64,000 bases of DNA, from contig JANJTP010000028.1 in the NCBI GenBank assembly GCA_024711025.1, forward strand, positions 1 to 64,000, given 5' to 3'. The position numbers and the translations under genes are program-made. The stretch comes from Solirubrobacteraceae bacterium. GTDB taxonomy: Bacteria; Actinomycetota; Thermoleophilia; Solirubrobacterales; Solirubrobacteraceae. The notes under the pieces were generated by a model that made no database searches, was not told the DNA's origin, and worked only from the letters and a program-made list of their open reading frames with translations. The first letter of the stretch is position 1, and every line of letters starts with the position of its first letter. Shown here piece after piece: positions 38,428 to 45,223 of the stretch.

Positions 38428-38500
38428 GGCGAGATAGCTCAGTTGGTAGAGCACACGACTGAAAATCGTGGTGTCCCCGGTTCGAGTCCGGGTCTCGCCA
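38428..38500 (+). tRNA. tRNA-Phe (GAA)
   Basis: GGCGAGATAGCTCAGTTGGTAGAGCACACGACTGAAAATCGTGGTGTCCCCGGTTCGAGTCCGGGTCTCGCCA; acceptor GGCGAGA/TCTCGCC; anticodon loop CTGAAAA; CCA not encoded. Confidence 0.96.
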
Positions 38501-38594: not shown

Positions 38595-39587
38595 TCACCT
38601 TGGCTCACCTGCATCTCGCCTGCATGGAGAACCGGGGTCGAGCATCACGACGTCATCGGTGCCGAGGTCGCTGAAGCACGTCGACGCAGAGCGCATCTCG
38701 TCCGTGACCAGAACGAAGCGGCCGTACGCGCGAAGAGCGCTGATGAATGTGGCGCCACACTCTTCGGCTAGCAGTATGAGAATGGTCTGGGCAGGCGTGA
38801 GCTCCCGAGTCGCGATGAGCTCGGCGCTACGCGTCGACTTGAGAAGCTCGCCGCAGCCGGTGACATCGAGGCCTGCAGCAGCTAGATACACCTGCACGTT
38901 CTCAACGAAACGGCGCGGGTCCGCCGCACGCCGGGCCTCGGGCCACATGGACGGCCAAAGCCCGATTGCCTCGGCATCCGCGTCGGGCTCGATGCCAGCC
39001 GGAACCCCCAGCCTCTCCGCCGCGCCTTGAAGGTCGGCGAGGTCGCCCTCCGCCGACTCCAGTACGGCCCGGACGGATGCGGCTGCCCGGCGGAGGCGCC
39101 AGTCATCGGACCCCTTGTAGACCTGGTCGTGCGTTGCGCGCCACCAAGCCCACTGGAGACCAGTCCGCACCTGCACCTCAAACGCGCGCTGTTCAACTTC
39201 GGCCGGCTCCAGGTTTCCGCCGAGCGGCCCGAGACGCGCGATGACGTGCGCGTCGTCATAGATGAATGCCTCGGGGTCCCGTAGCCGGGGCGGCTTCCGG
39301 TCCGCTTCACCGAACGCCGCCATGACCTTCGTAACGGCATCCTCAAGCTCCGCGCGCGTGGGGACAACGACGGTCGTCGCGTAGAAGTCGTGCATGTCCT
39401 CAATGGACCGCAGTTCGCCCAGTTGCAGCTTCGCAAGCACGCTCTCGGCGGGCTTGATGCGACCCTCGAACAACCACCGGTTGTCGTCACAAAGCCGTCG
39501 CAGCCGCGGCTCGGCGCGCATCTGGACCCGCTTCACGATGGCCTCTTGTTCTCGGCAGCGGACGAGGAAGCTGGTCGGAATGACCAT
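38595..39587 (-). CDS. RelA/SpoT-like domain protein (degenerate synthetase fold) in defence island
   Basis: AFEVQVRTGLQWAWWRATHDQVYKGSDDW corresponds to the (p)ppGpp synthetase ExQxRT...H motif; upstream IEDMHDFYATTVVVPT and FIYDDAHVIARL occupy the positions of the D..G.R and GYxSxH motifs. Confidence 0.75.
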   Translation of the reverse strand: MVIPTSFLVRCREQEAIVKRVQMRAEPRLRRLCDDNRWLFEGRIKPAESVLAKLQLGELRSIEDMHDFYATTVVVPTRAELEDAVTKVMAAFGEADRKPPRLRDPEAFIYDDAHVIARLGPLGGNLEPAEVEQRAFEVQVRTGLQWAWWRATHDQVYKGSDDWRLRRAAASVRAVLESAEGDLADLQGAAERLGVPAGIEPDADAEAIGLWPSMWPEARRAADPRRFVENVQVYLAAAGLDVTGCGELLKSTRSAELIATRELTPAQTILILLAEECGATFISALRAYGRFVLVTDEMRSASTCFSDLGTDDVVMLDPGSPCRRDAGEPR

Positions 39588-39596
39588 GGCGTCCGC

Positions 39597-40595
39597 CTAC
39601 TCGGTCAGCAGGTCAACCAGGATGCGGGCGCGTGCCTCGCGGTTTGTGTCCTTGCTCGCCCCTGCCCGGACGGCGGTCGAGTACTCCTGCGCCACTGGGT
39701 CCGCTGGTGTTGCGACTCGCTCCGAGAACGCCGTCAGGCGCTCGACCGCGACGTCCTCATCAGGCAGTTCATCTTTCTTGTCATAGATGTCCAACAAAGC
39801 GCCCCAAAGACCGTAAATGTCCGCCAGGTTCCGCCAGCGGGTCTTGCGCCATTCGAGGTCCAGACTGGCGAGATAGGACAGGATGAGGTCGTACCGCTCG
39901 CGATGCTCGTCCTCGTCGGGGATGCCATCGTCGTACTCGGCGTAGTAGTCGTCGAGCACGTCTGCGTTGCCGTCCATGATGCCGTGCATGGTCAGGAGGA
40001 ACAGCTCGGAGACGAACTCGACGTCGCGCATGCGGCGGATGTTGGTCTTGCTATTGAGCGCGGTCTTCGACCAGAACGTCGCCTGCGAAAGGTCCTCCAT
40101 TCGCGTAATGAACTCGCCGCTGAAGCGAGCATTCCGCAGCTCCTGCCGGTTCAGCCGGGCGACGTTCCGGTTGAGGCGGTCAAAGACCTCCTCCAGCTCA
40201 AGTTCATTGGTGCCAGACAGGTTCTCGACGGTGAGGACATACGAGACGAACAGGTTCTGTAGGTCAGCCGGGAGCTGCGAGAAGAAGCTGCCGCTATGGC
40301 CGAGGTCCTCCATGTGGTCGCCGAGATGGAACTCGTCCCGCGAGTAGCCAATGAGGGCGCGCAGCCGCTGCTGACCATCTATTACGTGGTAGACCGTCGG
40401 CGAGCCGATTCGGGTTTCGACGTCGAGGTATATGGCCGGACACGGGTAGTCGCGCAGCACGCTGTCGATGAAGAACCGCCGGTACTCGTCGGACCAGACC
40501 GAGCGGCGCTGGTAGGCGGGCTGCAGGTCAAGCTGGCCGTTGGCCGCAAGCTCGAGGAAGAACTGGACCGTTTGGGTGTTCGGGCGACGCTCCAT
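39597..40595 (-). CDS. DUF262 (ParB/Srx-like, GmrSD-N type) domain protein
   Basis: FLELAANGQLDLQPAYQRRSVWSDEYRRFFIDSVLRDYPCPAIYLDVETRIGSPTVYHVIDGQQRLRALIGYSRDEF...FDRLNRNVARLNRQELRNARFSGEF; hallmark QR..VW and DGQQRL motifs. Confidence 0.9.
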   Translation of the reverse strand: MERRPNTQTVQFFLELAANGQLDLQPAYQRRSVWSDEYRRFFIDSVLRDYPCPAIYLDVETRIGSPTVYHVIDGQQRLRALIGYSRDEFHLGDHMEDLGHSGSFFSQLPADLQNLFVSYVLTVENLSGTNELELEEVFDRLNRNVARLNRQELRNARFSGEFITRMEDLSQATFWSKTALNSKTNIRRMRDVEFVSELFLLTMHGIMDGNADVLDDYYAEYDDGIPDEDEHRERYDLILSYLASLDLEWRKTRWRNLADIYGLWGALLDIYDKKDELPDEDVAVERLTAFSERVATPADPVAQEYSTAVRAGASKDTNREARARILVDLLTE

Positions 40596-40645: not shown

Positions 40646-41116
40646 ATGCCGAGCACTCGTGACGAACGCAGATCCTACGACACCCCGCCAACGCCGGGTC
40701 GCAGCCGGAACATGGCGGCCAACCGCCGCCGCGACACCGGCCCGGAGCGGGCTGTGCGTTCGCTCCTCCACGGCGCCGGTTTGCGGTATCGCGTCGACTA
40801 CCCCGTCGTCGTTGACGGCGTGCGCATCCGGCCTGACCTCGCGTTCACCGCGCGTCGCGTCGCCGTCTTTGTCGACGGATGCTTCTGGCACTGCTGTCCC
40901 GAGCACGGGTCACGGCCGGCGAGCAATGTTCGCTACTGGGGGCCGAAGCTCCAGGGCAACGTCGACCGGGACCGCCGCCACACGAAACTGCTCCAGGAAG
41001 CAGGGTGGACCGTGTTGCGGTTCTGGGAGCACGAGGCCCCCGAGCGAGTTGCGGCAGAGGTTCAGCGCGCGCTCACCAGGAACGCCGCCGCTGACGCTGC
41101 GACATCGTCGCGATAG
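40646..41116 (+). CDS. vsr: very short patch repair endonuclease
   Basis: NRRRDTGPERAVRSLLHGAGLRYRVDYPVVVDGVRIRPDLAFTARRVAVFVDGCFWHCCPEHGSRPASNVRYWGPKLQGNVDRDRRHTKLLQEAGWTVLRFWEHE. Confidence 0.95.
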   Translation: MPSTRDERRSYDTPPTPGRSRNMAANRRRDTGPERAVRSLLHGAGLRYRVDYPVVVDGVRIRPDLAFTARRVAVFVDGCFWHCCPEHGSRPASNVRYWGPKLQGNVDRDRRHTKLLQEAGWTVLRFWEHEAPERVAAEVQRALTRNAAADAATSSR

Positions 41117-41132
41117 TCCATACGGGCTCGCG

Positions 41133-42203
41133 CTAAAGCGTCTGTAGCCAATCCGACAGCGACAGAATGCGTCGCGACGCGATGAGGTCCGGCAGTTCCG
41201 CTGCCGCTCCACGAGCGGTGTCGCCGTAGGCCGCGATCAGAGCGTCGGGGCAAACGTGGACGACCGCATCGAACAAGGGGCGCGCGAGCGTGCGCCGTTG
41301 GCACGCTGACTTGAGCCGCGCCCCGTCGAACTCGTTGGTTACGAGAACGAAGTCGAAGGCGGCTCCGCTGGCTTCCATCCGGGCGTATGAGTCGAAGTCG
41401 ACGCCGAACTGTTCCTCGCGGTCCGCCCGAACAGACCACTTGGCGCTCACGAGCACCCTCCGGCGGCCGCCCGACGTGACGATGCCGAGGTCTACGCGAC
41501 GCGGCTTCTCACCGTACGGAGGCTCGCGAAAGCCCGGCAGCTCGTGAAGCAGCTTGCGTGACTCGACGACTTCGGGACTACCGCCAGGTAGCCGCCGCAT
41601 GACCTCTGCCAGCGCATCTTCAAATCCCTCCCCGAGCAGGTTCTTGCGCTTATTTTCGGCCGCAGCAAGAGCAGCCACGGCCTCGGTCGCAGCCAGCAAT
41701 GCGTGCTCGGGTGTGTCCCGGCCGCCTACAGCATCAACAAACTGTTGGAAAATGTCGCGCAGCTCCGGGTCGAAGCCAGGCTCGGGGAGCTCTACGCCGC
41801 CGAACTGGCTGCGCTGAATAGCTGCGGCGGCGGCTCGCTCGGCGCGCTGATGCTGCTCGCGGACGCTCAGCCTGAGGAGGGCTTGCCCGAACATCCAGTC
41901 GATGTGGTCGCCCAGCAAGCGCGGTGGCACGCCGAGCTGGTCAGCGACCCAGGCGTGGAATGCCATGGTTCGCGCGTACCACCGGCGACCTGGCTGGGAC
42001 TTGTCCGACTCGTAGCAGTGAGCCAGACCGGTGCTGCGGTCGGTCCAGAGCAAGAGTCTGTACAGGGCCTTCCAAGCATCGGCCGGGGCCACTTCGAGGT
42101 CGCCGAAGAACTCGGCGAGGAGCTCAGCGCGGCTCGCGGCGCCGAACGGGCGCTGCACCGCTTCGGCAGATAGGTCAGGCGGAATCTGAAAGAGACCTTC
42201 CAT
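41133..42203 (-). CDS. type II restriction endonuclease-like protein (PD-(D/E)xK, SxK variant)
   Basis: RVDLGIVTSGGRRRVLVSAKWSVRADREEQFGVDFDSYARM active-site-like segment; directly downstream of a C5 methyltransferase on the same strand. Confidence 0.75.
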   Translation of the reverse strand: MEGLFQIPPDLSAEAVQRPFGAASRAELLAEFFGDLEVAPADAWKALYRLLLWTDRSTGLAHCYESDKSQPGRRWYARTMAFHAWVADQLGVPPRLLGDHIDWMFGQALLRLSVREQHQRAERAAAAAIQRSQFGGVELPEPGFDPELRDIFQQFVDAVGGRDTPEHALLAATEAVAALAAAENKRKNLLGEGFEDALAEVMRRLPGGSPEVVESRKLLHELPGFREPPYGEKPRRVDLGIVTSGGRRRVLVSAKWSVRADREEQFGVDFDSYARMEASGAAFDFVLVTNEFDGARLKSACQRRTLARPLFDAVVHVCPDALIAAYGDTARGAAAELPDLIASRRILSLSDWLQTL

Positions 42204-42243: not shown

Positions 42244-43551
42244 TCAGGCCGCGGCACTTGCTGCCAGAGGCATCGAAGCCGGAAGGCCCGGGGCCGCGCG
42301 GAGCTGGACCGCGATTGCTCGTCCGAGGGCGATAGCCAGCGGCGGAGGAACAGCGTTGCCGACTTGTCGGTAGATGCTGTGACGAGCACCGCCCGACAAC
42401 TGACCCGGCGTTCCGCGCGGTGCGGTGATGATCTGAAACCGGTCGGGGAAGCCCTGGATACGCGCGGCCTCACGCATGGACAATCCCCGTGGTGCCGCGT
42501 AGTGGTAGGCGAAGTCGGCTTTGGTATTCGCCGTCCACGCCAGCCAGTCAGGGTGCAGGCGCCGGTACGCGTAGAAGTGCCGACGAGAGAGCAGCTTCCC
42601 GTTGCCGGCAGGACCCCATTTCGCATCGCCCAGATAGCGGCGCAGCAGGTCGTCGGGCAGGTCGTAGATGTTGCCGCCGGGCGGAATGGCGTCGAGTCGT
42701 CGGGCGGTGTCCTCTCGAATGCGCGAAGGTAGGTGGCCCTGTGGCGCCCGGCTACCTCGCCGCACCTGCTTCTGGAAGGCGGTCTGCGGCTCGCCGGTGT
42801 AGGCCGGGCCTGGCACAAGCAAGTCGGAGAGTGCCTGATGGGCGGTTACGGCGCGCGCGTCCTGGGGGTCCTGCAGCGTGCGCAAGAGCGCGGCCTGTCC
42901 CTCGACCTCGTAAAGCCGGCCAGCGCTCTCGCGACGCGCAAGTCTGAGCGCCGCGACGACACCGGTCCCGCGTGGCAGCTCCGGCTCGCCGAGGTCTGCT
43001 CGCAGACCGATAAAGACAAGCCTTTCGCGCGCCTGCGGTGTTCCGAAGTCACCCGCGTCGAGCACCCCCGACGTGATGATGTAGTCGCCGCGGAGCGATA
43101 GGTCCTCTTCTATCTGACGCCTGACGACCCCGCCCTGTAGCTGGTTCATTCCCGGCACGTTCTCCAGAAGCATGGCCCTCGGGCGCAGCTCATCAAGCAG
43201 GCAGACGAACTCGCGATAGAGGCGGTTGCGCGGGTCGTCGATAAGCCGGTCATGGTTCCGCATTTGTGAAAAGGCCTGGCACGGTGGCCCGCCGGCTAGA
43301 AGGTCAAGAGTGCCGCGAGTTCGCGCGGCCGCCGCGAGCCGCTCGTGGACGGCAGGCTGCGTCAGGTCGCCCTCTACTACCTCCGTCTCCGGGAAGTTCT
43401 GCCGGTATGTCGCGCAGGCGTCTGGGTCATGGTCGACAGAAACCACGAGGTCGAAGCCGGCCGCCCGCAACCCCTCGCTCAGACCTCCGGCGCCAGCAAA
43501 TAGGTCGGCCGCAACAAGGTTGCGGTGCGCTGGGTCGAGCTCGTCGGGCAC
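42244..43551 (-). CDS. DNA (cytosine-5-)-methyltransferase
   Basis: VAADLFAGAGGLSEGLRAAGFDLVVSVDHDPDACATYRQNFPETEVVEGDLT...GGPPCQAFSQ...LENVPGM...RIQGFPDRFQ...QVGNAVPPPLAIALGRAI; motifs I, IV, VI, IX, X. GTG start at 43551 chosen. Confidence 0.94.
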   Translation of the reverse strand: MPDELDPAHRNLVAADLFAGAGGLSEGLRAAGFDLVVSVDHDPDACATYRQNFPETEVVEGDLTQPAVHERLAAAARTRGTLDLLAGGPPCQAFSQMRNHDRLIDDPRNRLYREFVCLLDELRPRAMLLENVPGMNQLQGGVVRRQIEEDLSLRGDYIITSGVLDAGDFGTPQARERLVFIGLRADLGEPELPRGTGVVAALRLARRESAGRLYEVEGQAALLRTLQDPQDARAVTAHQALSDLLVPGPAYTGEPQTAFQKQVRRGSRAPQGHLPSRIREDTARRLDAIPPGGNIYDLPDDLLRRYLGDAKWGPAGNGKLLSRRHFYAYRRLHPDWLAWTANTKADFAYHYAAPRGLSMREAARIQGFPDRFQIITAPRGTPGQLSGGARHSIYRQVGNAVPPPLAIALGRAIAVQLRAAPGLPASMPLAASAAA

Positions 43552-43752
43552 GTTCGGGAGCCTAGGCGGCGAACCGGACCGAAGCGGTGCCGTCCGGGGC
43601 CGCGGCGGGCCACGCGGCACCGGCCGACGAGCGCAGCCACAATTCCACGCGAGCGATGCGGAGCCGCCCGTCCTCGGTGTCTGTGGGCGCGCAGGTACGC
43701 TTGGCTTGCGGGGGAGCGGGGGCGCCGGCCGCGTCCGTAGCATGCCCGGTTC

Positions 43753-44420
43753 ATGACCAGGTCGCCCGGCGCTAGCGACGTCACCGCCCCGGGCAGCGAG
43801 CGGCGCGAACGGTTGTGCGCCATCGACCTGTTCTGCGGGGCGGGAGGCCTGACAGAAGGACTGCGTCAGGCACGGTTTCGCGTCGTCGCCGCTGTCGACA
43901 ACGATGAGCTTGCGGTCGAGAGCTACAAGCTAAACCACAAGCGGACGAGGGTCTGGCGAGACGACGTGGCTCAACTCAACCCAGCCACGGTGATGCGCGC
44001 CCTTGGCCTGAGTCCGGGCGACCTCGATTTGCATGCCGGGTGCCCGCCCTGTCAGGGCTTCTCGTCGATGAGGACGCGGAACGGCAAGCTCGACATCACG
44101 GACGAGCAGAACGACCTCGTGTTCGAGTTCGTGCGATGGGCCCGCGCTTTCCAGCCCCGAGCGGTGATGCTGGAGAACTTCCCCGCTTTGCGCGACGACG
44201 CGCGGATGGTGCGGGTGAGGGCCGCGCTGCGAAAGCTGGGCTACCACCTGCTCCATGACGTGCTTAACGCGGCAAAGTACGGCGTCCCGCAGCGCCGTCG
44301 GCGCTTCATCCTTGTCGGCTTGCGCGACGGCAACCCCCGCTTCGCCCCCGAGGTGCGCCGTCGACGGACGGTCCGTGATGCCATCGGGGACCTGCCAGCG
44401 CCTGGCTCTGGGGACGACCT
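43753..44420 (+). pseudogene. second DNA (cytosine-5-)-methyltransferase, C-terminally truncated at junction
   Basis: ERLCAIDLFCGAGGLTEGLRQARFRVVAAVDNDELAVESYKLNH...DLHAGCPPCQGFSSMRTRNGK...VMLENFPALRDD...YGVPQRRRRFILVGLRDG...TVRDAIGDLPAPGSGDD, then homology stops; motifs IX/X and the TRD are missing. Confidence 0.9.
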
Positions 44421-44423
44421 AGG

Positions 44424-45223
44424 CCGTCGCCCTGTGCGACGAGAACACGATCGGGGCCGTCTCGATCCTCGGCTCCACGTTCGACGGCAGCTACGAGCCC
44501 GTCGAGGCCCTCAACGCCGCGCTCGACGACCTCCAGGAGGAGACCGGCCTCGACATCCCGATCCATGTTGACGGCGCCTCGGGAGCGATGGTCGCCCCGT
44601 TCCTGGACCCCGATCTGGAGTGGGACTTCCGCGTGCCGCGCGTGGCGTCCATCAACACCTCCGGTCACAAGTACGGCCGCGTGTACCCGGGCGTGGGGTG
44701 GATCGTCTGGGGCGACGCGGAGAAGCTGCCCGAGGAGCTCGTCTTCAAGGTCAACTACCTCGGCGGCGAGATGCCGACGTTCGCGCTGAACTTCTCGCGT
44801 CCCGGCGCGCAGGTGATCGGCCAGTACTACGAGTTCATCCGCCTCGGGCGTAACGGGTTCACCGCCGTCCAGCAGGCCGCGCGCGACGCGGCGATGCGCC
44901 TGTCGGCCGAGCTTGCGAGCCGGCCCGAGTTCCGCTGCATCACCGACGGCTCGGAGCTGCCGGTGTTCGCGTTCACGACCGCCGACGACGTCAAGGCCTT
45001 CGACGTCTACGACGTCTCGCGCCGACTGCGCGAGCGCGGCTGGCAGGTGCCGGCCTACTCGTTCCCCAAGAACCGCGAGGATCTCAGCGTTCTGCGGGTC
45101 GTCGTGCGGACCGGGAACGTCGATCTGCTCGAGCTGCTGCTCGACGACCTCGACCGGCTGCTCCCCGAGCTGCGCGCGCAGTCCGGTCCGCTCGACGCCC
45201 GCCACGACACCTTCCACCACTGA
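44424..45223 (+). pseudogene. glutamate decarboxylase (GadB-like), N-terminally truncated
   Basis: AVALCDENTIGAVSILGSTFDGSYEPVEALNAALDDLQEETGLDIPIHVDGASGAMVAPFLDPDLEWDFRVPRVASINTSGHKYGRVYPGVGWIVW...; PLP-Lys motif SGHKYG; N-terminal half absent, in-frame TAG at 44420. Confidence 0.92.

Follow-up and report, generated by a model that had tools for sequence, protein, structure and literature searches.

The window, a stretch of 64,000 nt from a Solirubrobacteraceae bacterium (contig JANJTP010000028.1), carries two adjacent genes on the reverse strand. The upstream gene (39597-40595, - strand) encodes a stand-alone DUF262/GmrSD_N protein of 332 aa, with the ParB/Srx-type NTPase fold and the QR, DGQQR and FxxxN motifs. 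PF03235 was its only Pfam match (72.8 bits, cut-off 33.2, E = 5e-20), and no DUF1524 (PF07510) or other nuclease domain was found in it. Directly 3', on the same strand, lies the gene for a divergent RelA/SpoT-fold (RSH) protein of 330 aa (38595-39587, - strand; PF04607, 31.1 bits, cut-off 27, E = 3e-7), one relative of which scored 38.9 bits. Both ORFs are intact. The 9-nt gap between them (39588-39596, - strand) runs from the DUF262 stop codon TAG (39599-39597) through GCGGACGCC to the RSH ATG (39587), and translational coupling across it is likely. The DUF262 protein is proposed as sensor/regulator and the RSH protein as an ATP pyrophosphotransferase effector. The sequence-only reading of this DNA had described a same-strand pair with a 9-nt gap and a DUF262 protein bearing QRRSVW and DGQQRL motifs; its coordinates, strand and frames were all correct, and both motifs are present. 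In the PADLOC 2023 library, the DUF262 protein matched the NsnA and PD-T4-2_A models, and the RSH protein weakly matched the single-gene candidate PDC-S33. The NsnA model is presumably the DUF262 gene of Menshen. A fast single-family screen of the same genome listed the housekeeping Rel and missed the window RSH, a sensitivity limit of the screen.

On one side of the pair is tRNA-Phe(GAA) (38428-38500, + strand, ARAGORN), the left edge of the island. On the other are a Vsr mismatch endonuclease (40646-41116, + strand; TIGR00632, E = 4.7e-41), a 356-aa ORF (41133-42203, - strand) and a Dcm-type C5-cytosine DNA methyltransferase (42244-43743, - strand; PF00145, E = 3e-55), as the sequence-only reading had placed them. 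GC content falls from 0.74-0.77 left of tRNA-Phe to 0.62-0.66 across the pair. For the 356-aa ORF, nothing above cut-off was found in Pfam, PADLOC or NCBIfam. Homologues of Dcm (66%), the ORF (45% identity) and Vsr (69%) occur in the same order in a genome of the same family (L148). Because of this conserved order and a PD-(D/S)xK-like motif (DLGI...SAKWS), the ORF is probably the cognate endonuclease, an unclassified one of type II. On the far side of Vsr in that genome, a complete GmrSD (DUF262 + DUF1524) stands where the window has DUF262 + RSH. Three same-family genomes, that one among them, kept the order M23 peptidase-tRNA-Phe at another locus (L149-L151), and none of the cassette genes was found there in the fetched stretches. 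No direct repeats of the tRNA-Phe end of 16 nt or more were found as att sites. At 43753-45223 (+ strand), a truncated second C5-methylase, with similarity stopping near 44330, runs into a start-less glutamate-decarboxylase-like gene; this probably marks where the island ends on the right, or else is a scar of recombination.

To place the pair among other genomes, the RSH core was scanned against approximately 85,000 GTDB species genomes, and the 80 loci listed were analyzed. Thirteen stood clearly apart at the top (E = 1e-23 to 9e-18; next match, 6e-11), from Microvirga, an Acetobacteraceae MAG, Pseudomonas, Filimonas, Modestobacter, Breznakibacter, two Acidobacteria, Winogradskyella, Myroides, Chryseobacterium and two Bacteroidota/Flavobacterium MAG contigs. 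The pair proteins of the last two contigs scored identically and were counted once, giving at least 12 independent loci. Among the matches listed, DUF262 was directly upstream in 12/12 loci of this RSH subfamily and in 0/67 other RSH loci (Fisher P = 2e-14). The pair spans several phyla, and the synteny on which the sequence-only reading had staked its proposal extends beyond the source strain. DUF262 comes first in every pair, with a gap of -1 to 10 nt (11 genome-scan pairs measured). Pairs are also carried on Rhizobium plasmids, intact in Rhizobium sp. 007 with an 11-nt overlap. Identity matrices of the two proteins were correlated (Mantel r = 0.90, permutation P = 1e-4), indicating co-divergence. 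In one close pair, dN was 0.10 and 0.18 and dS was saturated (>2), with dN/dS of approximately 0.04 and 0.07, which in this comparison indicates purifying selection on both genes. In the Rhizobium pTi plasmids examined (L005-L007), an IS5 element splits RSH and leaves DUF262 intact, as though the effector had been disabled.

The family is rare in the genomes sampled. Of 324 genomes sampled in the Chryseobacterium family and 198 in that of Pseudomonas, only the seed genome carried the pair in each case; two further matches near 76 bits in this sampling were without DUF262. When 298 genomes of the phylum were searched with a single sequence, only remote RSH proteins turned up, and a two-sequence profile run on 398 genomes returned 18 remote RSH proteins, none with DUF262 within approximately 5 kb or the contig end. 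No copies of the pair were found in E. coli. A phage-borne origin was considered and rejected, as no close homologue was found in phage records and no homologue in one search of viral contigs. Near the pair of an Acidobacteria MAG, a second short RSH-like ORF was observed (L064, 7743-8357, - strand), and in Myroides indicus a TOTE conflict-system primase-helicase gene lies directly 3' of the pair (L062, 6879-9842).

The sequence-only reading had linked the pair to defence genes, and this link proved to be a specific one. Among the matches listed, a type II restriction-modification (R-M) gene lies immediately upstream on the same strand, 4-57 nt away, in 10/12 loci. It encodes a methylase of the N6-adenine type (Eco57I/N6_Mtase), an endonuclease of the BsuBI/PstI type, or both fused in one protein, with R-M classes that vary from locus to locus. 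The pTi plasmids have the gene order N6-methylase, BsuBI/PstI endonuclease, DUF262, RSH. The window conforms with variation, having a C5-methylase-type R-M system with Vsr inserted on the opposite strand. The remaining 2/12 loci, L053 and L063, are without an R-M gene directly upstream and were counted against a role as an R-M guard; at L053 the upstream gene is unassigned, with no recognizable R-M identity. At L004, the methylase is convergent with the pair and not co-operonic. As a control, methylase and endonuclease models were built from the family loci, and among the matches listed these matched 1/67 other RSH loci, weakly. Because the models derive from the family itself, upstream genes of 60 control loci were also scanned with Pfam; among the 25 most frequent of 76 matched families, one type I enzyme was the sole restriction entry. 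In Chryseobacterium sp. ISL-6, a BsuBI/PstI N-domain fused to an AAA ATPase (L063, 7-2113) lies two genes upstream of the pair, with a 231-aa unassigned gene also upstream, possibly a hybrid restriction/OLD-like system.

The RelA/SpoT call itself was sound. The RSH family profile reached CapRel (E = 1.4e-4) and also small alarmone synthetases, and a model of the window protein of fair quality (pLDDT 71) had CapRel, the nearest solved fold, as its top Foldseek match (E = 9e-5), followed by small alarmone synthetases. Together with the Pfam score above cut-off, these profile and fold matches ruled out that the call was not significant. The signature ExQxRT...H, which the sequence-only reading said was kept, is found as E137-VQ-VRT...H153. 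That reading had also called the protein degenerate, with GYxSxH and D..G.R replaced, and here it stood in part. IYDDAH and D67-FYATT are indeed present; the aromatic residue and His of GYxSxH are, however, retained in register, and of DxxGxR the Gly (A70) and Arg (T72) are lost and the metal-binding Asp (D67) is kept. The acceptor and adenine-stacking half is altered, whereas the ATP-triphosphate/Mg half is invariant.

In the 13 RSH sequences, an alignment of modest depth, R43, K45, S49, K53, D67, E137 and Q139 are invariant. By motif spacing and profile alignment to CapRel and SAS enzymes, these appear equivalent to FaRel2 R64, K66, S70, K74, D90, E145 and Q147, which hold the ATP triphosphate and metal, with the Glu and Gln contacting adenine (PMC11782079). 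The second adenine-contacting Arg (FaRel2 R95, CapRel R116) is Thr in 12/13. The canonical (p)ppGpp synthetase signature, GYxSxH with DxxGxR, is absent; the acceptor G-loop is rebuilt as xFDDxR, with both Asp invariant, and DFxAxT takes the place of DxxGxR. Only the window copy departs from this G-loop, having Tyr110 and His114 where the other 12/13 have Phe and Arg. At the acceptor Tyr of toxSAS and CapRel, a Tyr to Phe change compromises FaRel2 (PMC11782079). The Phe at this position in 12/13 and the Arg to Thr change mean that RSH activity could be altered or lost.

The DUF262 model (pLDDT 81.5) was closest to ParB-CDP, SspE and BrxU (E = 0.004-0.007). Its intact QR, DGxQR and FxxxN motifs are required in GrwAB (PMC12137116). 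DGQQR is found in the window copy only; other RSH-paired DUF262 proteins carry DGKQR. RSH-paired DUF262 proteins are a separate group, scoring at least 394 bits on the group model, against a maximum of 222 among the other DUF262 proteins; those of Rhizobium, left out of model building, scored 422-474. Residues 218-221 (Y218-A-x-Y221), kept in 12/13 RSH-paired proteins, resemble the YXXY of toxSAS antitoxins. Kinase-paired DUF262 proteins also have YxxY there, so the motif was not counted, and its use as proof of toxSAS-type neutralization was dropped.

No description of a DUF262 and RelA/SpoT pair was found in the open-access literature, and the statement of the sequence-only reading that it knew of no named system agrees with this. 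Several known systems are partly alike. CapRel, a tRNA-pyrophosphorylating phage-defence toxin, is a precedent for RSH-fold phage defence (PMC9712102), and with the toxSAS enzymes (FaRel2, PhRel, CapRel-SJ46) it shares the synthetase fold, donor and metal residues, small size and defence context. Unlike them, the present family has xFDDxR in place of GYxSxH, Thr in place of the Arg and no evident pseudo-zinc-finger, and its partner is DUF262 rather than an ATfaRel2- or PanA-type antitoxin. Systems in which DUF262 and its effector are encoded separately are well established: PD-T4-2 (DUF262 + HEPN), Menshen (DUF262 + OLD-type nuclease) and Dazbog (PMC10952713), and PtuXYZ (DUF262 + ATPase + BECR RNase; PMC11980606). 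PD-T4-2, Menshen and PtuXYZ likewise have a short DUF262 without DUF1524; the effector here is instead of RelA/SpoT fold, the DUF262 group is distinct and the link to type II R-M is dedicated. The window RSH had no HEPN match in Pfam or PADLOC, so the partner differs from that of PD-T4-2, and no OLD-type nuclease gene of Menshen was present among the window neighbors scanned, although the DUF262 protein does match NsnA. The type IV enzymes GmrSD, BrxU and SspE share the DUF262 NTPase domain and its three motifs, but the present protein has no nuclease domain, such as the DUF1524 HNH nuclease of GmrSD, and the family has DGKQR except in the window. Two side observations concern related pairs. 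In Asticcacaulis and Pseudanabaena plasmids (L008, L009, L011), DUF262 with a protein kinase follows the same plan with another effector, adjoining genes for PAPS reductase or cysteine desulfurase, an arrangement known from DNA phosphorothioation loci. In Rhizobium sp. 11515TR (L015, 3944-5670), the gene after DUF262 encodes a 210-aa protein that matches HEPN faintly, possibly a distant PD-T4-2 relative.

The tie to type II R-M operons was absent from the sequence-only reading, and the mechanism was reshaped by it. We tentatively favor, at a probability not far short of even, that these two genes make up a horizontally mobile defence module standing guard behind type II R-M. DUF262 would be an NTP-binding sensor and regulator that pairs with RSH and holds it off. 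On failure or inhibition of restriction, or in the presence of foreign DNA that is modified or lacks methylation, DUF262 would release or activate RSH through its NTPase cycle. RSH would then use ATP to pyrophosphorylate an acceptor that is not GDP/GTP, most probably the tRNA 3' end as in CapRel, and growth would stop as abortive infection, presumably against phage. This is favored by the strict pairing, co-divergence, upstream R-M genes and pTi gene order, by the invariant donor and metal residues, CapRel as nearest solved relative and the intact DUF262 motifs, and by GmrSD beside a homologous Dcm-endonuclease-Vsr set in a same-family genome. A further argument is the precedent of PrrC: its linked type I R-M enzyme keeps it silent, and a phage anti-restriction factor turns it on (PMC2610378). 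PrrC/EcoprrI is alike in encoding a translation-arrest-type effector with R-M, as a works-like analogy only; it combines type I R-M with an anticodon nuclease, in contrast to type II and an RSH fold here, where any silencing by the R-M enzyme is hypothetical.

Other readings were weighed against the same evidence. DUF262 might neutralize the RSH toxin in a stand-alone, toxin-antitoxin-like abortive-infection module and sense a phage product directly, the R-M genes being travelling companions in defence islands. PD-T4-2 (PMC10952713) and the kinase pairs show that DUF262-effector pairs exist without R-M, and L053 and L004 fit this reading, but same-strand R-M genes of differing classes at such short distance are a far tighter link than island clustering, and we consider it possible but unlikely. 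The pair could alternatively be a signaling one, in which RSH makes an unusual phosphorylated nucleotide bound by DUF262, with DUF262 or the linked endonuclease as effector. The NTP-binding fold of DUF262, its first place in every pair and the intact donor site with a new acceptor loop agree with this; the window DUF262 has no nuclease domain, however, and in other systems the downstream partner (kinase, HEPN) and not DUF262 bears the effector domain, which makes such signaling improbable. Much the same low probability is given to RSH as a pseudo-enzyme that binds nucleotide and serves DUF262 or the endonuclease as a regulatory subunit. The acceptor Phe and the Thr for Arg (each in 12/13) speak for it, and against it are the seven donor and metal residues and the new Asp-Asp pair, invariant across phyla beyond simple nucleotide-binding needs, and the window copy, which keeps Tyr and His at the G-loop. 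Chance neighbors or an annotation artefact have a negligible probability given the co-divergence and the pairing of 12/12 versus 0/67 among the matches listed, the latter ruling out chance adjacency.

Returning to the R-M-linked guard, a stronger form of it would be a kind of guard immunity, so far undescribed, that belongs to type II R-M: the DUF262 NTPase would watch over R-M function or the modification state of DNA and trigger an RSH enzyme whose new acceptor, neither GDP/GTP nor a known toxSAS substrate, is recognized by the FDDxR G-loop; this form is regarded as doubtful. The classical R-M-linked guard, PrrC/EcoprrI, belongs to type I R-M, and the type II tie here contrasts with it. The small two-gene size makes the module easily testable, and the rebuilt acceptor loop is a good place to seek new RSH chemistry. 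If the guard function is true, RelA/SpoT enzymes would join the effectors used by DUF262 sensors, and restriction systems would commonly come with a backup defence, as a mobile pair on unrelated type II operons in several phyla.
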